Made by a program: the position numbers and the translations under genes
Source of the DNA: a virus
Strand: one strand, 5' to 3'
Length of the DNA: 37,284 nucleotides
Virus record (IMG/VR): IMGVR_UViG_3300005822_000003
Span: 1 to 37,284 of that record
In this document: piece by piece, positions 4,117 to 37,284 of the stretch
Numbering within the stretch: position 1 is the stretch's first letter
How the letters are laid out: every line of letters starts with the position of its first letter
The notes under the pieces: generated by a model
Database searches by the model: none
The model's input: only the letters and a program-made list of their open reading frames with translations
Told to the model about the DNA's origin: nothing

Positions 4117-4377
4117 ATGCCGATTTATACGTACCGATGCAACTCCTGCGGCTCATGTCAGGAATCAATTAACACTATAGCACGCCGGAATGATGTTCCA
4201 CAATGCTTGACATGCGGCGGCGAAACCAATCTTAAGATTGTGCCGCCAAGGATCGCTCCCATTTTGGGAGGCTCGGACTTCCCCGGTTACCAGTGTCCGG
4301 TTACTGACCAGTACGTAACGAGCAGGAAGCAGCGGCGGGAGATCATCGCGCAATACAACTTGGTGGAGAAAGGCTGA
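4117..4377 (+). CDS. FmdB-family zinc-ribbon protein
   Basis: This 86-residue protein begins with the typical MPIYTYRC start of FmdB-like zinc ribbons. Cys8-x2-Cys11 and Cys30-x2-Cys33 form the predicted four-Cys zinc site. The C-terminal half is basic and has no second domain. Such proteins are common among head genes of tailed phages, often labelled as regulators, but their role in the particle or in gene control is not established. The stop overlaps the next ATG (TGATG), so it is coupled to the paralogue triplet. No strong ribosome site is visible. Confidence 0.75.
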   Translation: MPIYTYRCNSCGSCQESINTIARRNDVPQCLTCGGETNLKIVPPRIAPILGGSDFPGYQCPVTDQYVTSRKQRREIIAQYNLVEKG

Positions 4378-4943
4378 TGGCTGGTACTGTAAATGCTCCT
4401 TTGTGGGTTAGAGAGCTTAACGAGGGCGGGCTGAAAGAGCGCATCACGCAGTATCTTTCGTCCAACGGTGACGGCACCGGTACTGTGTCGTGGAATGGGA
4501 ATTACGCCTCTGCTGAAGGGATTGGTTACATTCAACCACCGGCTGGTGCTGTTTATCGAATCGAGGCCATCATGATATGCGTAGAAGATACTGATGGTAT
4601 GACCCTGAACGATTACGGAACCATCACGAGCGGTATATCAAACGGAGTTCAATTGCGCATTCAGAATGACTCCGGAACGCTTAAATTTTTGACTGGCAGC
4701 ACGCTTTTGCCAGTCAAGAAAAACCTTGGGTGGGGATCTCTTGCTGGTGCGGGCGGGTTTCAGTGGGTGGACACTGGGACCGGCGATCCTGAAGCAATCT
4801 TTGTTACGCTTGATTACTCAAGGCTTTCAGGTCAAGCCTTGCGCTTAGTCGGAGACGACAACGAGAGGCTTGAGGCTGTTTTTAACGACAACCTTTCCGG
4901 GCTTTTGAATCACACTTTTTTCGTTTATGGGTACATAGAGTAA
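4377..4943 (+). CDS. Virion-protein candidate, paralogue 1 of 3
   Basis: This 188-residue protein is the first of three tandem relatives. Shared landmarks are a GDG-x-G turn near residue 31, a Y-I-QPP motif near 50, a conserved DYG near 78, an R-x-QNDSGT stretch near 95, and a C-terminal block with LR-x-x-G, N-x-R-L-E and a final GYIE. It looks like a beta-sandwich. It has no signal or membrane segment, so it is probably a virion surface or assembly protein, which I infer from its place directly before the scaffold gene. Start is coupled to the FmdB gene. Confidence 0.6.
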   Translation: MAGTVNAPLWVRELNEGGLKERITQYLSSNGDGTGTVSWNGNYASAEGIGYIQPPAGAVYRIEAIMICVEDTDGMTLNDYGTITSGISNGVQLRIQNDSGTLKFLTGSTLLPVKKNLGWGSLAGAGGFQWVDTGTGDPEAIFVTLDYSRLSGQALRLVGDDNERLEAVFNDNLSGLLNHTFFVYGYIE

Positions 4944-4946
4944 GTT

Positions 4947-5501
4947 ATGCCAGGGCAAAGAACATCAGCCCCTGCAAGCGTCAATCGCATGCTTAGAGAG
5001 GCGAGCAACGACCCTATTGTCAGGTACTTGACTGCCACTGGGGATGATTCAAGCTCAAGAAACGTTTTAGGCAACTACTCATCTCCCCATATAGTATTCT
5101 TGCGGCCTCCCGTTGGCACCGTCTATTTGATGAAAACCGTCGTGGTCTTCATCAGAGATAATGGCGCGCATGAGCTATCAGATTATGGCGGCGATGCTGA
5201 CGGCATTAGCCCTGGGTGGGCCCTAAGACTGCAAGATGACTCCGGCACACTGCATAACTTTGTGCATTACAATGTGCTGGATAATGCATACTTTGGCATG
5301 ATTAATGGCCCGCTTGGGCGGCAGGGGACACGTCTTGGCTTGGACCCGGGGTGGCTTACTACATCTGATTTTCAGCTTGCGAAGGGCAGGGCGCTCCTTA
5401 GAGTTGACGGGAGCTTAAACCAGCGCATCGAAGTGATTATCGAGGGCAATTACTCGACTTTGCAGGTTCATACATTCTTGGCGTACGGCTATGTTGAGTA
5501 G
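4947..5501 (+). CDS. Virion-protein candidate, paralogue 2 of 3
   Basis: This 184-residue protein starts three bases after the previous stop. It keeps the family landmarks (RPPVGTVY, SDYGG, RLQDDSGT, LRVDG, GYVE) but has the most divergent N-terminus and lacks the MxGTVNAP start of copies 1 and 3, so it probably diverged first or fastest. The most variable stretch lies at about residues 105-145, between the conserved DSGT and LRVDG blocks. Same inferred role as copy 1; no known family recognised. Confidence 0.6.
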   Translation: MPGQRTSAPASVNRMLREASNDPIVRYLTATGDDSSSRNVLGNYSSPHIVFLRPPVGTVYLMKTVVVFIRDNGAHELSDYGGDADGISPGWALRLQDDSGTLHNFVHYNVLDNAYFGMINGPLGRQGTRLGLDPGWLTTSDFQLAKGRALLRVDGSLNQRIEVIIEGNYSTLQVHTFLAYGYVE

Positions 5502-5509
5502 AGGATCAT

Positions 5510-6058
5510 ATGTCTGGAACAGTTAACGCCCCAATTTGGACTACGTCGTCACCGACAGGATCTCAACGTGCGCATATATCAAGATTCCTTGACACCGTTG
5601 GCGACGGGTCCGGGACAAAGAACGCGATAGGAGATTATTCGGCGGCGGCTGAGATATTCTTTATACAGCCTCCAGCCTCGCAAGTATTTAGAATTGCGAG
5701 GATATTGGTGACAATCTGCGACACAAACGGTAGCTCGGCGGGCGATTACGGGAACATCACGGGCGGCATAGCTAACGGTGTGACGGTGAGGCATCAAAAT
5801 GATGCGGGCACCGTGACCAACTACACTGATGGTGTGCCTGTAACCGATAATGCGTCGTGGACAAGCTTTTGTTACGACGGAGTCCCGCTGGTCTGGGGTA
5901 GTGGCAACGATGTATTCGCCGTGAGGTGGACGTTTGAGAAGTCCGGTCAATACCTGAGACTAGACGGAGCAGTAAACGACAGGTTGGAGGTCGTTCTAAA
6001 CGATGACCTTCGGGGCCTGATCTTTCACAGGTTTCTTGTGCAAGGGTATATCGAGTAG
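5510..6058 (+). CDS. Virion-protein candidate, paralogue 3 of 3
   Basis: This 182-residue protein resembles copy 1 most closely, sharing the MxGTVNAP-x-W start, GDGSGT, FFIQPPA, GDYGNITGGIANGV, RHQNDAGT, LRLDG, NDRLEV and the final GYIE. The AGAGGATCAT stretch before the ATG supplies a ribosome site. The gene ends 12 bases before the scaffold gene. Three diverged but complete copies suggest distinct roles or a hetero-oligomer and not recent duplication. Confidence 0.6.
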   Translation: MSGTVNAPIWTTSSPTGSQRAHISRFLDTVGDGSGTKNAIGDYSAAAEIFFIQPPASQVFRIARILVTICDTNGSSAGDYGNITGGIANGVTVRHQNDAGTVTNYTDGVPVTDNASWTSFCYDGVPLVWGSGNDVFAVRWTFEKSGQYLRLDGAVNDRLEVVLNDDLRGLIFHRFLVQGYIE

Positions 6059-6070
6059 AAGGGGGGAAGT

Positions 6071-7105
6071 ATGGCGACTGAAGGTAATGAGGCGCTCAGC
6101 CTTACTGACGAGTTAGTGAACGCCTTCGCTGAATATGAAGACGAAAGCGAGGTTGAAGATGCCGCAGGCGGGGAAGAGGGTGGAGAGAATGAGGAAGGGG
6201 GGCAAGCCCTGCAACCGGACGACGCGGGAGGCGGAGAAGAAGGCGATCAAGTCGAGGAAGACGAAGCAACGGAGGATCTCGACGGAGATGGAGAAGAGGA
6301 GACCGTTGAAGCGCTAGCCGCCCCTGATCACTGGGCCTCTGGCGACAAGGAGATATTTGGGAATGTCCCGCGCGAGGCGCAGGAATTCCTTCTGAAGCGT
6401 CACCACGCGATGGAGGCGGACTACACGCGAAAGACGCAAGAAATTGCAGAGATTAGGCGGGTAAGCGAGACGATCGACCGCGAGATGCAGCCACTCAGCC
6501 AAGATCTGGCAATGGCTGGCGCGGATAACGTCGCGTTTATTCGCCAACAGGTAGCATGGGCCCAAGCATTCAAGAGCGACCCGAATGCCGCCCTTGCGAG
6601 CCTAGCAAGGCTATATGGAATCGAGGGGCCTCAACAGCAAGAGCAGGACGACATCGACCCTGCGGTTGTCCAGTTGCGCGCCCAGGTCGAGACCATGGAG
6701 CAGAGAGAAACCCGAAGATTAGAGGCACAGCAGCAGGCAGAGCAACAGCGCTACGTGTCGATGATCGAGGACTTTGCCGGAGAAAAGGACGATGGCGGCG
6801 CGTTGAAGCATCCGCACTTTCAGGATGTTCAGGCGGATATGGGCAAGCTTATTAATGCTGGCCTAGCTTCCGGACTTGACGACGCGTACCCACTGGCCGT
6901 TTCCATGAAAGGCTTACAGCAACAGGCGGGGCAGCAGGCCGCGCCAGCAAAGCTGAGCGGAAAGCCCTCTCATCGAGCCAAGGTAGCTAAAGCGAAGAAG
7001 GCAGCAGCCGGCGTTCGTAGTTCGGGAGCACCAGCAAAGGTGGTTGCTGAGCCAATATCGTTGTATGACGATCTGAGCAACCAATGGGACAAGCAATTAA
7101 GTTGA
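6071..7105 (+). CDS. Capsid scaffolding protein
   Basis: This 344-residue protein directly precedes the major capsid gene, the usual place for a scaffold. Residues about 20-85 are extremely acidic (long runs of Glu, Asp and Gly). Residues about 90-130 carry the pattern seen in podovirus scaffolds (DHWASGDKEIFGNVPREAQ, then a helix with MEADYTRK). The rest is helical and Gln-rich, and the C-terminal 60 residues are basic, as expected of the part that contacts coat subunits. A strong ribosome site (GGGGGAAG) precedes the ATG. Confidence 0.85.
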   Translation: MATEGNEALSLTDELVNAFAEYEDESEVEDAAGGEEGGENEEGGQALQPDDAGGGEEGDQVEEDEATEDLDGDGEEETVEALAAPDHWASGDKEIFGNVPREAQEFLLKRHHAMEADYTRKTQEIAEIRRVSETIDREMQPLSQDLAMAGADNVAFIRQQVAWAQAFKSDPNAALASLARLYGIEGPQQQEQDDIDPAVVQLRAQVETMEQRETRRLEAQQQAEQQRYVSMIEDFAGEKDDGGALKHPHFQDVQADMGKLINAGLASGLDDAYPLAVSMKGLQQQAGQQAAPAKLSGKPSHRAKVAKAKKAAAGVRSSGAPAKVVAEPISLYDDLSNQWDKQLS

Positions 7106-7116
7106 GGTAACCCGAT

Positions 7117-8070
7117 ATGGCAACTATCAATATCGGCGAAATCGTTACTACCACGCTACGCAACCGCTCCAAGCAGCTCTCCGACAACGTGCTGAACCAC
7201 AACTCGTTGTTTATGGTGCTGAATCAAAAGGGCAATGTGCGCGATGCTGATGGCGGGCGCGAGATCGTTGAAGAGCTGGAATACGCAGAGAACGGCACCG
7301 CTGGCTGGTATACCGGCTATGAGGTGCTGGACATCACGCCGCAGGAAGTGTTTGACGCTGCCACCTATGACTGGAAGCAGTTGGCCGGCAACGTGTCCAT
7401 CTCCGGGCTTGAGGAGATGAAAAACTCCGGGAAGAACCGGATTATCCCTCTGTTGCAAAAGCGCATCACGAACCTTGAGAAAACCCTCAAGAATCGCGTT
7501 GGCACGGCCGTATACTCGAACGGTACGACCGATCCCAAGGCGATTGGCGGGTTGCAGCTCTTGGTTGCGGACGACCCTACGGCGGCCAGCACGATCGGCG
7601 GCATCGCTCAGGCTACCTACACCTTTTGGAGAAACCAGTACAGCGCCGCCGCGGCGACCAGTTCTGGCAACATCCAGGCGCGCATGAACCTGATGTGGCT
7701 AGCCTGTGTTCGCGGAGTCGACAAGCCTGACGTTATTCCTGCCGATTCGGTAATGTACACGCATTACGAGAATGCGCTCACCCAGTATCAGCGGTTCAGC
7801 GGAAGCGAGAATGGCGCACTGGCAAAGGGCGGATTTAGCTCGCTCATGTACAAGACTGCGGAGGTGGTCTACGACGACCAGGCACCGGCTAGCCACATGT
7901 ACATGCTCAACACGGATTACATCTATCTGAGGCCGCATTCTGACAGGAAGTTTGTCCCGCTCGATGATCGAAACTCCATCAATCAGGATGCGAAGGTGAT
8001 TCCGGTTGTGTGGGGCGGGAACATGACTTGCTCGAACCGGTCCCTCCAGGGCGTGATCATCGCGAGCTAG
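7117..8070 (+). CDS. Major capsid protein (probable HK97 fold)
   Basis: This 317-residue protein follows the scaffold after 11 bases with a good ribosome site (GAGGTAA). It resembles podovirus major capsid proteins: a helical N-terminus with TTTLRNRSKQLSDNV, an E-loop-like region near residues 50-75, an N-rich middle, and a C-terminal block with MLNTDYIYLRPHSDR (about 265-279) followed by a beta-rich end. It assembles the icosahedral shell around the scaffold. A perfect hairpin follows the gene. Assignment rests on motif memory and gene order. Confidence 0.85.
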   Translation: MATINIGEIVTTTLRNRSKQLSDNVLNHNSLFMVLNQKGNVRDADGGREIVEELEYAENGTAGWYTGYEVLDITPQEVFDAATYDWKQLAGNVSISGLEEMKNSGKNRIIPLLQKRITNLEKTLKNRVGTAVYSNGTTDPKAIGGLQLLVADDPTAASTIGGIAQATYTFWRNQYSAAAATSSGNIQARMNLMWLACVRGVDKPDVIPADSVMYTHYENALTQYQRFSGSENGALAKGGFSSLMYKTAEVVYDDQAPASHMYMLNTDYIYLRPHSDRKFVPLDDRNSINQDAKVIPVVWGGNMTCSNRSLQGVIIAS

Positions 8071-8083
8071 GACGCGTAGCAGT

Positions 8084-8106
8084 AACCCCTGGGCCTCCCA
8101 GGGGTT
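8084..8106 (+). terminator. Hairpin after the capsid gene (possible partial terminator)
   Basis: AACCCCTGGG (8084-8093) pairs perfectly with CCCAGGGGTT (8097-8106) around a CCT loop. The stem is strong but followed only by GTCCGC, so it lacks a proper U-tract. It may reduce read-through or protect the capsid mRNA from 3' decay, keeping capsid output above that of downstream genes. Confidence 0.55.
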
Positions 8107-8139
8107 GTCCGCAACATACTCGGTAAAGAGGACGAACTA

Positions 8140-8622
8140 ATGGCTTTTGTAACTTCCGGATGCGCGGGCGTCGACTTGACCGCAACGCCCACTAGCGCTG
8201 GATTCGATCTAGGTACGTGCGTCATGGGCACCGACAACACCGAATGGGTGTATGTCCAAGCTTCTGGCGCGATCACTCAATACGACTGCGTCGCTATCGA
8301 TGAGAACTTCCAGGCTGCCGCCATGACCAAGACGCTGGCGGACGCCGGTCATGATGTAGGCTTCGCTCAGGTGGCCTTTGTCGATAATGACTATGGCTGG
8401 GTAGCTTGCGATGGCGCGAACAATAGCGTGCGTGTGGCTGCTTCCTGTGCTGCTGACGTGTCGCTCTATACCACCGCTACCGCTGGGGTGCTGGATGACA
8501 CTTCGGCCTCTCAGACCAAGATTGAGGGGCCTGTGCTGGTGGCGGCTGGAACGTCCGCTGCTGTCTCTGCCCGTGAGGTCTTGATCTCTGGCGGTGGCGC
8601 GCGCGCGGATCAACCGGCCTAA
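8140..8622 (+). CDS. Probable capsid decoration / cement protein
   Basis: This 160-residue, Ala/Val/Thr-rich protein looks all-beta. The block around residues 42-55 (ASGAITQYDCVAIDE) and the following segment resemble small phage head proteins of the DUF2190-like cement type, and its position right after the capsid gene fits. It would bind the outside of the shell and stabilise it. The ATG follows AAAGAGGACG. It ends a few bases before the next start. The family assignment is from pattern memory. Confidence 0.55.
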   Translation: MAFVTSGCAGVDLTATPTSAGFDLGTCVMGTDNTEWVYVQASGAITQYDCVAIDENFQAAAMTKTLADAGHDVGFAQVAFVDNDYGWVACDGANNSVRVAASCAADVSLYTTATAGVLDDTSASQTKIEGPVLVAAGTSAAVSAREVLISGGGARADQPA

Positions 8623-8626
8623 CCCG

Positions 8627-9121
8627 ATGCCCGCCCCACGATGGAAAATATCCCATGGCGCCGAATCAATGGCGTCGGTGTGGGGCGGGGTTTTCACTAA
8701 GGATGATAAACATTCTGGTTGTCTAATTTTCCCGGAAAATCGAAAGCGAACGGTCAACATAATTTACGAAATGCCATCGTTCTATGAAGACGGGACTTCG
8801 GTTACGTTAAGTATCGCGTGGAGCAAGCCTGTCCCCGGTCCTGGGTCAGTAGCTTGGCGTGAGCGGCATAGGGAGGCAGTTCCTGGGGAGGCGTGCGCAG
8901 GATGGTCGGATTGGGCTGTTGGCGCTGAGAATTATGACGTTGATGACAGCTCGATAGTCCAGCTTTGCACGTTCCCAGATATTAGCATTCCGAGGCTATC
9001 TAAGGAGTCGATCCTTTTTGTTCAGATTTGCCGAGACCCAGCTCATGATGGATACGCGGAGCGTGTTAATGCTATGTCGTTCGACCTTGAGTATACGGGT
9101 ATCTGGCCAATTCACCAGTGA
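8627..9121 (+). CDS. Unknown late protein, probably virion-associated
   Basis: This ORF is open from a GTG at 8594, but the first ATG after the previous stop is at 8627, giving 164 residues; another ATG lies at 8669. None has a strong ribosome site, so the start is uncertain. The sequence is beta-rich with several Trp and Cys, no signal peptide and no membrane segment. It ends 25 bases before a strong terminator, which closes the head-gene block. Product not recognised; virion association is inferred only from position. Confidence 0.5.
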   Translation: MPAPRWKISHGAESMASVWGGVFTKDDKHSGCLIFPENRKRTVNIIYEMPSFYEDGTSVTLSIAWSKPVPGPGSVAWRERHREAVPGEACAGWSDWAVGAENYDVDDSSIVQLCTFPDISIPRLSKESILFVQICRDPAHDGYAERVNAMSFDLEYTGIWPIHQ

Positions 9122-9146: not shown

Positions 9147-9174
9147 ACGGGGCCACGGGGCCCCGTTTTCATTT
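9147..9174 (+). terminator. Rho-independent terminator closing the head-gene block
   Basis: ACGGGGCC (9147-9154), loop ACGG, then GGCCCCGT (9159-9166) form an 8-bp GC-rich stem followed by TTTCATTT. This is a standard intrinsic terminator on the plus strand. It sits between the head genes and the methyltransferase gene. Confidence 0.75.
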
Positions 9175-9202
9175 GTGCTGTTGCCTCCCGGTCAAGTAAA
9201 AT
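9173..9202 (+). promoter_or_regulatory. Candidate promoter for the glycan-modification cassette
   Basis: TTGTGC (9173-9178), 18 bases, TAAAAT (9197-9202); the -10 matches consensus at five of six bases and the -35 is weak. It follows the terminator immediately and precedes the methyltransferase start (9228) by about 20 bases after the expected transcription start. Terminator plus promoter is the arrangement of a phage moron. Confidence 0.4.
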
Positions 9203-9227
9203 GTTGCTTCACAACCAAGGGGGAAAT

Positions 9228-9893
9228 ATGCAGCTAGCAGGTGAACTTTACATACCGGACCGGGATACGTTCTTCGGCCCGATCTTTGAATCAACCGGAG
9301 ATCGGTTCGACGATAGAGCTCTAATTGATGCGATCAAATATTCGCATGTGGCCGCGATAGGCCTGGATATCCCGGTCAAGGCGATAGACGTAGGCGCTCA
9401 TGTCGGGTCGTGGACTCGCGTTATGGCGGATGAGTTCGATTGCGTTATGGCCATTGAGGCCGTGTATGAAAACTACCAGTGCTTGGTAAAGAATACGGAG
9501 CACCTTGAGAATGTGAGCACGTTTTGCTCCGCGGCTGGCCCGCATCCTGGCTTTGTCAGGTTGGCGCCTGGAGCAAACGAAGGGAATAGCGGCACATGGC
9601 ACATAGACCCGAAAGGTAAGCAGTGGACGGTAATGACAACGCTGGATTTCCTGCCCACCGAGGGTTGCCGCCTGCTTAAGATCGACGCGGAGGGATATGA
9701 GCTTGGCGTTCTGTCGGGTGCGGAGGCTCTTCTTGAGAATGAGAAGCCTGTCCTAGTGATTGAGCAAAACGAGCTTTCGGAGCGCTACGACGCCACCGAC
9801 GAAGACATAAAAAAACTATTGACATCATTCGGTTACGCGCTTCGCGCTAAGGTAAACAAGGATTTTATCTATGATCATACATCCAGATGGTAA
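9228..9893 (+). CDS. FkbM-family SAM-dependent methyltransferase
   Basis: The ORF is open from 9018, but the ATG at 9228 has a strong ribosome site (AAGGGGG), giving 221 residues of the usual FkbM size. Residues 51-63 (KAIDVGAHVGSWT) are the glycine-rich SAM-binding loop, the acidic residue after MAIEA ends the second strand, and LKIDAEGYELGVLSGA near 150 is the FkbM signature. Members O-methylate sugars or similar hydroxyls using SAM. The gene overlaps the sulfotransferase by 23 bases, which suggests a joint pathway. No signal peptide, so it acts in the cytoplasm. Confidence 0.85.
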   Translation: MQLAGELYIPDRDTFFGPIFESTGDRFDDRALIDAIKYSHVAAIGLDIPVKAIDVGAHVGSWTRVMADEFDCVMAIEAVYENYQCLVKNTEHLENVSTFCSAAGPHPGFVRLAPGANEGNSGTWHIDPKGKQWTVMTTLDFLPTEGCRLLKIDAEGYELGVLSGAEALLENEKPVLVIEQNELSERYDATDEDIKKLLTSFGYALRAKVNKDFIYDHTSRW

Positions 9894-10512
9894 GGGCGGG
9901 CACGATTGGCTTTTCGTCTCAACGATGAAGTGCGCGACCAACTCGATGTACAAGCTTTTGCCGGATATCGGTGGTCATCGGCTGTGGAATACGAGCGGCA
10001 ACTTCCACGCTCGCCCGACTGGCAGGCTGGCCGCGGTGCATTTCACTATCGTTCGCAACCCGTATGACCGCGCGGTAAGCATCTGGGCGTCCACGTGCTT
10101 GCGCGACAATGACCGATATGGTGCCGTCGCCAAGATCAAGAGCGAGGGCGGGAATCCTGGGAGCTTCGAGGACTTCTGCGCTGCCTGCCTTGCGCCGCCG
10201 CCGATGAGTTGGGCGCAAAATAGTTGGCTGTTCGAGAATCAATACGAGTGGATTAGGTCGTTCATGGTAGACGAGCTGGTTCACCTAGAAAACCTGAAGG
10301 AAGAGCTTGAGGAGATCGTTGGACCTGTCCCGAAATTGCCGATCGAGAATTCAAGTAGCCACAAGCCTTTTGCTGAGCACCTAACGCCTGACGCTGTAGA
10401 TATAATCAACGACTGGGCGTCCGATGACTTCGCGCTAGGCGGATATGAGCGATTGGACTGGCAGCCGTTCGGCGACAAGGATGACGACGGGGAGACGTTT
10501 CGTTATGGATGA
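9871..10512 (+). CDS. PAPS-dependent sulfotransferase
   Basis: This 213-residue protein shows both PAPS-binding elements of the sulfotransferase family: a 5'-phosphosulfate loop at 17-26 (STMKCATNSM) and the 3'-phosphate motif at 61-70 (VRNPYDRAVS). It resembles the short carbohydrate-type sulfotransferases (Sulfotransfer_2 group), without a membrane anchor. It would move sulfate from host PAPS to a sugar or other hydroxyl. A good ribosome site (AAGGA) lies inside the end of the methyltransferase gene, and its own end overlaps the glycosyltransferase start. Sulfotransferases are uncommon in phages. The acceptor is unknown. Confidence 0.8.
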   Translation: MIIHPDGKGGHDWLFVSTMKCATNSMYKLLPDIGGHRLWNTSGNFHARPTGRLAAVHFTIVRNPYDRAVSIWASTCLRDNDRYGAVAKIKSEGGNPGSFEDFCAACLAPPPMSWAQNSWLFENQYEWIRSFMVDELVHLENLKEELEEIVGPVPKLPIENSSSHKPFAEHLTPDAVDIINDWASDDFALGGYERLDWQPFGDKDDDGETFRYG

Positions 10513-11953
10513 GCTGCAAGTTGTATGCGTGAAGTGGGGCGACAAGTACGGGCCAGAGTACGTAAACATCCTGCAGGACATGGTTTGGCGGAACCTGACG
10601 ACGCCGCACCGGTTCATTTGCTATACCGATAACCACGATGGGATCAGCGACCGTGTGGACGTGCGCATGCTTCCCGGTGGCCTGGACGGCTGGTACAACA
10701 AGCTGTGGTTATTTTCGCCTGACGCGGGCCTGAGCGGCCGCGTGCTGTACTTTGATCTGGATACCGCTATCACAGGTAGGCTAGAAGAGATCGCCGAGTA
10801 CAGCGGGCCTCTGTGCCTGCTCGAGGACTTCTACGGCTGGACCAAGTACGGGTCCGGCGTCATGGCGTGGAATTCCAGTGTTTACCCCGTCACAGAGGCT
10901 ATCTGGAAGGAATACAAGGACAGCGGGTTCCCTGCGCACCCAAAGGGAGATCAAGGATTCATTTGCGATACGCTAGACTGGCTCCATCAGCAACCGGCAA
11001 CCTGGCAGGGAAAGTTCCCTGGCTCGTTCTGCTCATACAAGATCCACGCCAAGAAATGGCCACCGAACGGGTGCAAGGTCGTCTGCTTCCATGGTGAGCC
11101 GAACCCGCACCAGCTCCCTTCTGAGTGGATCGCGCATGTTTGGAAGCCCGGTGGGATCAGCGAGGCCAAACTCGAGTCGAAGTGCAACACGGAGAAGTCC
11201 GAGGCGATATCGAACGTTCGGGCCAACATGGCCAGGGGCGTCCAGCACTTGCAGCCTAGGGAGGGTAACGGGAAAACGATGGTGATCATTGGCGGGTCTC
11301 CAAGCATTGGTCGCTCGATGCCAATGATCCGCAAGGCAATGCGCAAAGGGGATATATGGTCTGTCAACGGCACGCACGATTTTCTGCTGGAGCGTGGCGT
11401 TACGCCGGACTATTTTGCGCTACTTGACGCCAGGAAAGACAACGTCCGCTTCGTGCAAAAGCCGAACAAGCGGACAAAATACCTTATCGCCTCGCACTGC
11501 GCTCCAGATGTGTTCGACGCGCTCAAGTCCTTCGATGTTGAAATGTGGCATGCCTATGAGCCTGATTTACATGAGGTTTTTAAGGAGCTTGCCGGCGACC
11601 AGGTGCCTATCCGCATGCTCGGAGGTGGTAACACCGTTGTCTTGAAGCTGCTTTACATGGGTCGGATGCTCGGCTACACGAAGTTCGAGCTATTTGGCGT
11701 TGATTCGAGCTATGAGAACGATGAGCATCATGCGTATCCGCAGCCCATGAACGATGGCGAGCACAGGCTTGCAGTTTGGGCCGCTGGGCGCAAATTCTCG
11801 TGCGCGCCATGGATGATTGTTCAGGCGAAAGACTTCCAAGAACAGGTTAGAGTCCTGATAGATGAAGGGTGTATAGTTACAGTTCATGGCAACGGGTTAA
11901 TTCCTTTCATTGCCAGCCAGTTAGCACAGGGGGAAGATAGCAATGCCGAGTGA
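10505..11953 (+). CDS. Glycosyltransferase fused to a DUF115/MptE-like domain
   Basis: The frame is open from 10445, but the ATG at 10505 follows GGGGAG and overlaps the sulfotransferase stop, giving 482 residues. The first ~230 residues look like a retaining glycosyltransferase of GT-A type: W-Y-NKLWLF near 63-70 and the metal-binding DxD as LYFDLDTAI (Asp84, Asp86). From about residue 257 a second domain begins with KTMVIIGGSPSIG and continues with DIWSVNG and DYFALLD, matching the DUF115 (MptE-like / Maf motility-accessory) group, members of which act in glycan transfer to flagellin. The fusion points to glycan assembly on a protein. Acceptor unknown. Confidence 0.75.
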   Translation: MDELQVVCVKWGDKYGPEYVNILQDMVWRNLTTPHRFICYTDNHDGISDRVDVRMLPGGLDGWYNKLWLFSPDAGLSGRVLYFDLDTAITGRLEEIAEYSGPLCLLEDFYGWTKYGSGVMAWNSSVYPVTEAIWKEYKDSGFPAHPKGDQGFICDTLDWLHQQPATWQGKFPGSFCSYKIHAKKWPPNGCKVVCFHGEPNPHQLPSEWIAHVWKPGGISEAKLESKCNTEKSEAISNVRANMARGVQHLQPREGNGKTMVIIGGSPSIGRSMPMIRKAMRKGDIWSVNGTHDFLLERGVTPDYFALLDARKDNVRFVQKPNKRTKYLIASHCAPDVFDALKSFDVEMWHAYEPDLHEVFKELAGDQVPIRMLGGGNTVVLKLLYMGRMLGYTKFELFGVDSSYENDEHHAYPQPMNDGEHRLAVWAAGRKFSCAPWMIVQAKDFQEQVRVLIDEGCIVTVHGNGLIPFIASQLAQGEDSNAE

Positions 11954-12461
11954 TTTCATGGCAGCAAGGTTTTACCACCACCCAGAAAAGCGGTCCGATG
12001 GGCTGTTTTATGACGTGGTTTTTGTCGAGCTTAGAATTAAAGGGGATCGGAACACCACGTTTTCCAGGAAAAAGGTAGATCAGGACGAGGACGACTTTCC
12101 TCGTTCGTGGCGGACGTTTAAGCAGTCTATCCCGGACAGCGCAGACGGCACGCCGATAAGCGCGCTCCCGTTTATCTCGCAGGCTGATCAGATGAATCTG
12201 CGGGCTATGAAGGTCGCCACGGTTGAGCAAATGGTTGCTTTGCCGGATGCGACGGTCAATAAGCTGCGCGACGGATTTAAAACGAGAGCGCGCGCCAGGG
12301 CCTACCTTGCGGCGCTCGAGTTAGATGTTAGCGAAGAACCTGAGTCCTCGGGGCCGTTCGCCGATGAAGAGCAAGACGACTGGGTAAGCGCTCAGGATGA
12401 TGAGCCAGAACCACAGCCGAAGGTCAGAAATAGGGGCCGTCCCCGTAGGGTGACGGCATAA
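11943..12461 (+). CDS. Conserved late protein of podovirus neck region
   Basis: This 172-residue protein has a strong ribosome site (GGGGGAAG) and overlaps the end of the glycosyltransferase gene. The N-terminal ~60 residues look like a beta-rich domain (DVVFVELRIKGDRN). Residues about 75-125 form a helix-hairpin-helix-like part (AMKVATVEQMVALPD), and the C-terminus is acidic then basic (RGRPRRVTA). I recognise this layout from proteins just before the connector genes in short-tailed phages; the function is not known. Probably a minor virion or assembly protein. Confidence 0.55.
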   Translation: MPSDFMAARFYHHPEKRSDGLFYDVVFVELRIKGDRNTTFSRKKVDQDEDDFPRSWRTFKQSIPDSADGTPISALPFISQADQMNLRAMKVATVEQMVALPDATVNKLRDGFKTRARARAYLAALELDVSEEPESSGPFADEEQDDWVSAQDDEPEPQPKVRNRGRPRRVTA

Positions 12462-12477: not shown

Positions 12478-13188
12478 ATGTCATTACTGAGCATATGCCA
12501 AGACGTTTGCTATGAAACCGGGGTTGTCGCCCCATCTACCATCGTCGGGAACACCGATTCGACCGCCAGGCAGCTATTCAGGCTGGCTAACAGGACTGGT
12601 GAAGAGCTTTCTCAGGCGTCTCCTCCATGGGAGTTCCTTATCTCGGAGCACACCATAACGCTCGTAAGCGGCACGCAGACCTACGCCCTGCCTTCGGATA
12701 TCCGCTGGCAGGTGCCAGATACCACATGGAACCGAACGGACGACAGGCGCGTTGTGAACCCGCTTAGCGCCAAGGAGTGGGCGACAGAGAAGGGATATGA
12801 GACCGTTGGTGGGCTGGAGCTCGAAGCCAGGATAAAGGGGAATCTGTTTGAGATCGAGCAGGACGTTGGGTCTGGTGAGGATGGGGACATTATCGTCTTC
12901 GAGTATATCTCCGATAAGTGGGCGCAGACTAACGTGGGCGTGGCCCAGAAGAAATTCCAGGCCGACACGGACTCATGCCTTATCTGTGAAGAGCTTATAA
13001 CTCAGGGCGTTATTTGGCGCTTCAAGAAGGGCAAGGGCCTAGATGATTGGGTTTCAGATGAGAGGTCGTTTGAGCGGCTGAAGGCGGCAATGCTTGCCCG
13101 CACTGGCGGCTCGCGCTCAATCTCGATGGGAGGCAAGCGCCTCGACTTGATTTTGGGTGTGAACGTTCCGGACCGGGGGTTTGGCTAA
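12478..13188 (+). CDS. Head-tail connector / adaptor protein
   Basis: This 236-residue protein begins with a helical segment (MSLLSICQDVCYETGV) and continues with QLFRLANRTGEELSQ, TYALPSDIRW and a C-terminal AMLARTGGSRS block. These are features of the gp11-like (T7 tail tube A) or P22 gp4-like adaptor family that docks on the portal ring. Its placement before the large beta-rich tail protein fits. The stop overlaps the next ATG (TAATG). AAGG before the start serves as ribosome site. Confidence 0.7.
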   Translation: MSLLSICQDVCYETGVVAPSTIVGNTDSTARQLFRLANRTGEELSQASPPWEFLISEHTITLVSGTQTYALPSDIRWQVPDTTWNRTDDRRVVNPLSAKEWATEKGYETVGGLELEARIKGNLFEIEQDVGSGEDGDIIVFEYISDKWAQTNVGVAQKKFQADTDSCLICEELITQGVIWRFKKGKGLDDWVSDERSFERLKAAMLARTGGSRSISMGGKRLDLILGVNVPDRGFG

Positions 13189-35646: not shown

Positions 35647-37225
35647 AGCACCTCCAATTCCTGATCCGGCAAGAACCGCTCAAGCGCAAGGCGCCGCGAA
35701 TATCCAGGCTATCCGGGAGTCTGCCAAGTTCAACCAGGTAAACCAAGAAACCCCGTGGGGTAAGCTTCAATACTTCGGCCAACTTGGCACGCCGACCTAC
35801 ACGCAGCGGACCACGCTGAACCCGCAAGATCAAAGACAGCTCGATCTTGAGCGGGGATTGTCTGCACAGCTCACCGGATTGGCCGGGAACAGGGCCAACC
35901 AGATTGATACAGCATCCATCAATCAGCGCATGGCTGGCCTCCCGCAAGCTGCTGACCGGCTCAACCTATCCGGCATGCCTGATATCCCCACTGGGTTTGG
36001 GGCGCTTCCGGGAGTCAGGTCAACCCTTGATGTGGCCGGCGCGCCCGGTATGGTGACCGCTCTTAATCAGCGAGGGTTGCCGCAGGGTCGAGGGACGATT
36101 GGCGGGCCAGGCGTGTCCCTAGAGGGAAAATGGGGGAATCTAACGGCTATCCCGGGGGCACAGGACTTCGGCGCGGAGAGAGGGCGAGTCGAGGATGCCG
36201 TTCTTGGGAGCATGATGAGCCGCATCGAGCCGCAGATTCAGCAGCAACGCGATGCTCTAGAGCAAAGTTTGGCCAACCGTGGCATTCCGCCAGGCTCCGA
36301 GGCTTGGACAACCGAAATGCAGAACATGCAGCGCTCGGAGAATGACATGCGGCAGCAGGCCTTGTCGCAAGCTATTCAGATGGGCGGCGCGGAGCAGGGT
36401 CGGCTGTTCGGGCAGGCTATGCAGGCGCGCGGCCAGCAGTTCGGAGAGGGCACCACAAGGGGCCAGTTCTACAACCTAGCCCAAGGGCAGGGGTTCGGTC
36501 AGGAAGCAGAGAGGGCGCAGTTAGCGAACGCACTGCGCAGTCAAATGACTCAGGAACAGCTTGCGGAGGCTGGGCTGGTGGCCGGAGCCAGAGGGCAGAA
36601 CCTTCAGGAAGCGCTTGCTGGCCAGAGTTACACGGCTGGCATTCGTGGGCAGCTTGCAGGCGAGCAGCTTCAAGCGGCCGATATGGCGTCCAGGGCGCGC
36701 GGTCAGCTTGTTGGGGAGGAGTCCCAGCAGGTTGCGCTGCGCAATCAGGCCAGAGACCGGGCCATCCAAGAGATGATGCTTAAGCGCACTCAGCCCATGA
36801 ATGAACTGGCGGCGCTGCTTCAGGGTTCGCCCGCGCTGCAAGGCCCGCAGTTTACCGGCACGCCACAGTACCAGGTGCAGCCACCGGACGTTATCGGCGC
36901 TCAATCCATGCAGCAGAACGCCTTGATGAACCGGTATAACCAGCAGCTTGCGGCACAGCAGGCACAGCAGGGTAACTTATGGGGAACTGTGGGGAACCTT
37001 GGGTCGGCTGCCGCGACGTATGCTGCGTTTTCTGACCGCAGACTGAAAACTGACATCACCAAGCTCGGCGAAGGGCTCAAGGGACTTGGTGTCTACGCCT
37101 TCCGCTATATCTGGGGCGGGCCGGTAATGGTCGGGTTCATGGCTGACGAGGTCAAGGAGGTAGCGCCTTGGGCGGTTACTGAGGTTGCCGGCTACATGGC
37201 GGTAGACTACGGGAGGATCATCTAA
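35627..37225 (+). CDS. Gln-rich virion protein with C-terminal S74-like domain
   Basis: A 532-residue protein. Residues 1-~60 are a Pro/Ala-rich start with NQETPWGKLQYFG, then a Gln/Gly/Ala-rich region of about 400 residues with repeated QLAGEQL/ARGQ-type units suited to long helices. At the end is a short S74-type chaperone with Ser469-Asp-Arg-Arg-Leu-Lys474 and FRYIWGG, VGFMADEVKEVAPWAV and a final YMAVDYGRII. The S74 domain may be cut off after assembly. Position after portal suggests an internal or tail-hub protein. The window ends interrupt nothing: the whole gene is present here. Confidence 0.7.
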   Translation: MGKSKPKAPPIPDPARTAQAQGAANIQAIRESAKFNQVNQETPWGKLQYFGQLGTPTYTQRTTLNPQDQRQLDLERGLSAQLTGLAGNRANQIDTASINQRMAGLPQAADRLNLSGMPDIPTGFGALPGVRSTLDVAGAPGMVTALNQRGLPQGRGTIGGPGVSLEGKWGNLTAIPGAQDFGAERGRVEDAVLGSMMSRIEPQIQQQRDALEQSLANRGIPPGSEAWTTEMQNMQRSENDMRQQALSQAIQMGGAEQGRLFGQAMQARGQQFGEGTTRGQFYNLAQGQGFGQEAERAQLANALRSQMTQEQLAEAGLVAGARGQNLQEALAGQSYTAGIRGQLAGEQLQAADMASRARGQLVGEESQQVALRNQARDRAIQEMMLKRTQPMNELAALLQGSPALQGPQFTGTPQYQVQPPDVIGAQSMQQNALMNRYNQQLAAQQAQQGNLWGTVGNLGSAAATYAAFSDRRLKTDITKLGEGLKGLGVYAFRYIWGGPVMVGFMADEVKEVAPWAVTEVAGYMAVDYGRII

Positions 37226-37284
37226 TGCCGAGCTTTTTTAATCCGGTTCAGGGGCAGGGGCAGGACTTCGAGCAGCGTAGGCGC
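37186..37284. repeat. Terminal 99-bp overlap, right copy
   Basis: Identical to bases 1-99. Merging the two gives a circle of 37,185 bp. Bases 37225-37284 are the start of the gene annotated at 40-1242. Confidence 0.9.

Follow-up and report, generated by a model that had tools for sequence, protein, structure and literature searches.

The DNA analysed here, referred to throughout as the window, is the full stretch of positions 1 to 37,284 of IMG/VR record IMGVR_UViG_3300005822_000003. Because an exact direct terminal repeat of 99 bp occupies its two ends (1-99 and 37186-37284), the window is probably a complete 37-kb genome. The TerS, TerL and portal genes run across the genome join into the capsid region at 7117-8622, all on the plus strand, and a cassette of three genes on the same strand (9228-11953) follows between the capsid and neck genes (Table 1), where an earlier reading of the sequence alone (the sequence-only reading) had already put it, between head and tail genes. 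Neighbouring cassette genes overlap by 23 bp (methyltransferase/sulfotransferase) and 8 bp (sulfotransferase/glycosyltransferase), and the last of them shares 11 bp with the structural gene that follows; the real starts are probably the ATG codons at 9228, 9871 and 10505. No isolated phage with DNA similarity to the window was found. Upstream of the capsid gene, three consecutive paralogous genes (4377-6058; 31-44% identity) encode possible virion surface proteins.

Table 1. The cassette and its surroundings, in window coordinates.
Feature	Position	Strand	Evidence or remark
TerS	30381	+	head gene
TerL	31906	+	head gene
Portal	33357	+	head gene
Major capsid protein, Mx8 type (5' landmark of the locus)	7117..8070	+	phrog_9953 2.7e-96; 42% identity to Myxococcus phage Mx8, 50% to a Bradyrhizobium phage
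Head decoration-like virion protein, possible acceptor	8140..8622	+	phrog_29386 virion structural protein 3e-10
Terminator-like hairpin between upstream head-region gene and cassette	9147..9166	+	8-bp stem; z -2.9
FkbM-family SAM methyltransferase, 221 aa	9228..9893	+	PF05050 3e-13, TIGR01444 1e-18, phrog_8156 2e-24
Predicted PAPS-dependent sulfotransferase, 213 aa	9871..10512	+	PF03567 8e-5, phrog_3347 1e-7, PAPS loops, fold neighbours
GT-A (GT8-like) domain with DxD motif, N-terminal half of 482-aa protein	10505..11152	+	phrog_1962 2e-27
DUF115/MptE-like, Maf-like domain, C-terminal half of 482-aa protein	11153..11953	+	PF01973 1.6e-16
Conserved gene 3' of the locus (Mx8 p50-like position), 3' landmark	11943..12461	+	downstream of the locus in most relatives
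SU10-adaptor-like neck/tail protein, 3' landmark	12478..13188	+	phrog_6013 tail 1e-38; PF24175 2.7e-5, just under cut-off

The sequence-only reading had assigned the three overlapping genes to an FkbM methyltransferase, a sulfotransferase with both PAPS loops and a DxD glycosyltransferase fused to a DUF115/MptE-like domain, and profile searches together with structure prediction bear out all three families. By its profile scores the FkbM assignment is unambiguous (PF05050, 50.7 bits against a curated cut-off of 22.7; TIGR01444, 68.2 against 37.7). The second protein matches PF03567 marginally (23.3 bits, cut-off 22) and a PHROG named 'Galactose-3-O-sulfotransferase', and its 5' loop STMKCATNS and 3' loop VRNPYDRAVS are near-invariant in an alignment of 9 homologues. 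Its structure model is of modest confidence (mean pLDDT 62); every one of the 50 structural neighbours listed for it is a sulfotransferase (Z up to 8.3), with heparan 6-O, 3-O and N-sulfotransferases at the head; Foldseek alone returned no significant match for the model, and the profile of the protein gave chance-like matches only against the sequences of solved structures. Judged by its loops and modelled fold, this product is a small, divergent PAPS sulfotransferase. It shares these two traits with the carbohydrate sulfotransferases (the heparan 6-O, 3-O and N- enzymes and the Gal-3-O-sulfotransferase of PHROG 3347) and differs from them in being about 200 aa long, soluble and phage-encoded.

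In the third protein, the DxD motif of the GT-A domain reads YFDLDT, and the fold matches (LARGE1, Z 9.2; GT8, Z 8.7; LgtC, 8.2; GlyE, 8.2) are those of a GT8-like enzyme. The DUF115 half is closest to the flagellin glycosyltransferase Maf (PDB 5mu5; Z 16.2, rmsd 3.2 Å over 199 residues; Foldseek 1.5e-5), ahead of archaeal MptE (HPPK; Z 12.9) and the sialyltransferase CstII (10.9); the two structure models come from shallow alignments and are of middling confidence (mean pLDDT 60-62). Going by the model, whose nearest fold is that of Maf, the phage domain is misleadingly named in Pfam ('hydroxymethylpterin diphosphokinase MptE-like'). Fold and family (PF01973) are common to Maf and the phage domain, but the latter is fused to a GT-A domain, no nonulosonic acid genes were seen in the phage, and against the full-length Maf/PseD family (NCBIfam PseD) the protein scores 15.7 bits where the cut-off is 670. 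It would thus work like Maf without being a member of that family.

No transmembrane segment or signal peptide is evident in any of the three proteins, all of which look soluble. Comparison with the sister genome L002 gives dN/dS values of 0.18 (FkbM), 0.32 (sulfotransferase) and 0.10 (glycosyltransferase), which place the cassette genes under purifying selection. Other phages glycosylate hypermodified DNA, and one could imagine that the glycosyltransferase modifies the bases of the phage's own DNA. We regard this as extremely improbable and found no support for it: no base-hypermodification enzyme occurs among the window proteins scanned, the gene has a late structural location, and relatives of the sulfotransferase and of FkbM act on sugars or small molecules.

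A terminator at 9147 and a candidate promoter at 9173-9202 had suggested that the cassette is a moron. The hairpin is indeed present; its stem is kept and its loop changed in L002, and a different hairpin lies directly ahead of the FkbM gene in the relative L006. The promoter did not hold up, as a scan for sites of the sigma-70 type listed nothing at 9173-9202, and over the region it gave 1 site against 2.9 in shuffled sequences, i.e. fewer; by eye, the best reading at 9173-9202 agrees with about 8 of 12 consensus bases. No terminator separates the 3' end of the cassette from the overlapping structural gene at 11943. Of the marks of an autonomous unit with its own promoter and terminator, we therefore find the upstream hairpin and no promoter at threshold. 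Because the promoter is unsupported and the 3' frames overlap, the cassette is more likely to be expressed by read-through from late transcription than to be an autonomous moron. Further upstream, an ORF at 8594-9121 (likely start ATG 8627, ~165 aa, no Pfam or PHROG match) has its start inside a strong terminator-like hairpin (~8630-8690, -37 kcal/mol); this ORF is missing at the same place in L002.

A capsid-based search returned 80 relatives, whose common gene order is capsid, decoration-like gene, a variable segment, the 11943-like gene, adaptor and a 13188-like gene; most of them have no insert. The sister L002 carries the same three genes in the same order at 92-99% identity, and L006 the same set in the same order at 44% (FkbM), 54% (sulfotransferase) and ~62% (GT-DUF115) identity. 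The GT-DUF115 part is present in the fragment L004, L008 and L009 encode a single-frame GT-DUF115-Methyltransf_24 fusion (668 aa in L009), and L007 has a DUF115-methyltransferase fusion with a second DUF115 protein. Profile searches of 42 records placed DUF115, FkbM, phrog_1962 and the sulfotransferase nowhere in the 36 insert-free relatives.

A second search, with the GT-DUF115 protein instead of the capsid protein as query, yielded 75 loci, and the DUF115 domain lies between the capsid protein and the adaptor or downstream landmark in all 46 loci showing both, a set that includes a few same-contig duplicates and some near-identical entries. With repeats removed, 111 contigs show both capsid and adaptor, 43 with the module and 68 without it, frequencies that describe contigs, most of them fragments, and are not population estimates. 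The 68 have a median gap of 934 bp and none of the tested enzymes; in the 43 the median gap is 3.8 kb, with DUF115 in every one and a GT in 41. A methyltransferase (FkbM/Methyltransf_24, by similarity) accompanies the DUF115 module in 31 of 43 contigs and occurs in 0 of the 68 others, counts for which a Fisher test is descriptive only, since the contig sets stem from different queries and include near-duplicates.

Other alleles at the site carry sugar C-methyltransferases (PF08421/PF08484), an FdtA ketoisomerase or a family-2 glycosyltransferase (GT2). Because the alleles encode predicted sugar-making and sugar-tailoring functions, the site can be called a glycan locus with fair certainty. The moron signature is further weakened by the 43 contigs with comparable sets, and, rather than a stray moron, the cassette appears to be one of the alleles that occupy a fixed locus. 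The sequence-only reading knew of no described system with these three enzymes. Text searches likewise turned up no paper that treats phage, sulfotransferase, glycosyltransferase and FkbM together; yet the combination is not unique, a glycosyltransferase, a Maf-like domain and a methyltransferase being the ordinary content of the locus. Independent insertion of the three enzymes at a permissive site, with no common pathway, is distinctly improbable in our view, even though the locus is a hotspot (the unrelated ORF at 8627-9121, present in the window and missing in its sister, is an instance) and most of its members have no sulfotransferase. L006 retains all three genes in order despite its 44-62% identity, the methyltransferase was never seen at the site without DUF115 (31 versus 0), and it is often fused with GT-DUF115 in one frame. 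In the related phages the cassette genes stay together at the same site, and none was found scattered.

The sulfotransferase, a kind of enzyme that the sequence-only reading called unusual in phages, is the unusual member of the combination and the rare part of the locus, confined to the window and two relatives. As neither Sulfotransfer_2 nor Sulfotransfer_3 was found in 39 other locus-bearing records, sulfation is, by these profiles, a rare allele. In isolated phages, direct tblastn with the sulfotransferase gave no match, and a profile search gave one, in Pelagibacter phage Mosig (MT647606). Like the window, Mosig has (FkbM-like) methyltransferases, glycosyltransferases and a sulfotransferase together; it is a larger phage, of the Kyanoviridae, and its cluster lies near a ribonucleotide reductase gene and ruvC, not near capsid genes. 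One study of marine phages says that it is still unclear what phage-encoded sulfotransferases do (PMC10580990).

Relatives sharing the KCATN motif are found beside Maf-like genes in phages whose capsids belong to other families. The order is portal, protease-like gene, PF05065 capsid, DUF115 and sulfotransferase in L091, and PF03864 capsid, connector, DUF115-like gene, sulfotransferase, ATP-grasp-like gene, two glycosyltransferases and head-completion genes in L092-L094, the ATP-grasp-like and head-completion classes being assigned by eye. In L096 a glycosyltransferase, a DUF115-GT, a methyltransferase and the sulfotransferase precede terminase-like genes, and in L095 the sulfotransferase is near an FkbM gene. 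Among sequenced bacteria, the closest relative found (50%) comes from a Pontiellaceae genome, where it forms the opening domain of a long protein. The region (L176, 859-12979) begins with a flagellin gene, includes TPR, HAD-hydrolase and sugar-aldolase-like genes, and encodes the 1071-aa protein that starts with this domain; it is a possible sulfated-flagellin locus, a setting that would fit a protein-glycosylation origin of the sulfotransferase.

We consider it fairly probable that Mx8-type podophages have a virion-glycosylation locus of which the cassette is one allele, and that the product of this allele is a methylated and sulfated glycan on a virion protein. The pathway that we infer, including the order of its steps, would operate in the cytoplasm late in infection. 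The Maf-like/GT-A protein would attach a sugar to Ser/Thr of an abundant virion protein, most likely the capsid or decoration protein, and extend it; FkbM would then O-methylate the sugar and the sulfotransferase would sulfate it with host PAPS, leaving a negatively charged, methyl-capped glycan on the particle. Candidates for the acceptor are the capsid protein, the product of the decoration-like gene at 8140 and the three paralogues at 4377-6058. The phage showed no pathway for making a donor sugar, so the donor, whatever the sugar, would have to be host-derived.

The virion reading is supported by the fixed site between capsid and adaptor (46/46), by the allelic sugar-enzyme content at this one site and by the absence of the tested families from the 36 insert-free relatives. 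It also draws support from relatives of the sulfotransferase in phages with unrelated capsids (PF05065 in L091, PF03864 in L092-L094), where they come after a DUF115-like gene and either adjoin the head genes or lie among them, and from the closest bacterial sulfotransferase, beside flagellin and sugar-enzyme genes. The DUF115 fold, nearest Maf and clearly over MptE, argues for protein O-glycosylation, the frame overlaps link the cassette with structural genes, and the soluble proteins and purifying selection (dN/dS 0.10-0.32) count in the same direction. Against it stand Mosig's similar enzymes away from virion genes, the L096 relative beside terminase genes, the middling models and near-cut-off PF03567 match, the missing donor-sugar pathway, and the fact that capsid synteny can arise from a tolerated insertion site. 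The shared pathway proposed by the sequence-only reading thus gains from the conserved grouping at one site and from the sulfotransferases beside Maf-like and capsid genes elsewhere, while its target is something we infer.

Phages often carry enzymes for host surface glycans, and sugars linked to nucleotides or lipids can be substrates of cytoplasmic carbohydrate sulfotransferases. PHROGs, moreover, classes two of these three families as moron/host takeover. Modification of a host surface glycan (LPS O-antigen, capsule or lipid), with a block to superinfection or a change of receptor, nevertheless seems unlikely to us: the cassette has no membrane anchor, flippase or polyprenol enzyme, its proteins look soluble, the module sits with overlapping frames within a run of structural genes and recurs beside unrelated capsids, and the best DUF115 fold match is a protein glycosyltransferase. 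That this match is Maf, and that the closest bacterial sulfotransferase adjoins a flagellin gene, would also suit glycosylation of host flagellin or pilin during infection, altering motility or receptor access. The consistent position next to capsid genes and the variation in content among related phages, as expected of a virion surface trait, make this improbable.

Virion glycosylation has precedents. Phage-encoded glycosyltransferases decorate capsid and tail-tube proteins of mycobacteriophages Che8, Corndog and Myrna (Freeman et al. 2023, via passages in PMC12363180 and PMC11256854), an established system that we count in favour of the virion reading. The window differs in having a GT8-like and Maf-like fusion with a methyltransferase and a sulfotransferase, placed at a constant position next to the capsid gene of Mx8-type phages; those passages do not mention sulfation. 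Maf is described as O-glycosylating surface-exposed Ser/Thr of flagellin (a passage in PMC11339370) before chaperone binding and export (a passage in PMC4065374), which would be an apt parallel for a capsid protein.

More tentatively, and with slightly less than even confidence, we propose a widespread allelic capsid-glycan locus in which a Maf-like/GT protein and exchangeable tailoring enzymes generate serotype-like surface diversity, PAPS sulfation being a rare allele that has made its way into the head-gene regions of several phage lineages unrelated to one another. If so, many environmental podophages would alter the surface of their particles through exchange of sugar-tailoring enzymes at a single site, with consequences for particle stability, adsorption and interaction with the environment. 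The site looks like a virus-coat decoration locus without earlier description; it links one family of phage sulfotransferases to virion genes and Maf-like protein glycosylation, giving the family a concrete, testable role, and provides a collection of small phage glycan enzymes that can be studied.

At the same locus, L007 encodes a protein (5589-6170) with sulfotransferase-like loops, TVRHTGTHS and VTYRDPLRTAASW; hhalign gave no support for membership in the same sulfotransferase family and Pfam was silent, so that we rejected it and keep it as a by-eye lead only. The ATP-grasp-like protein, also recognised by eye and with no Pfam match, is encoded between the sulfotransferase and glycosyltransferase genes in L093 (3087-4013) and L092 (6922-7803).
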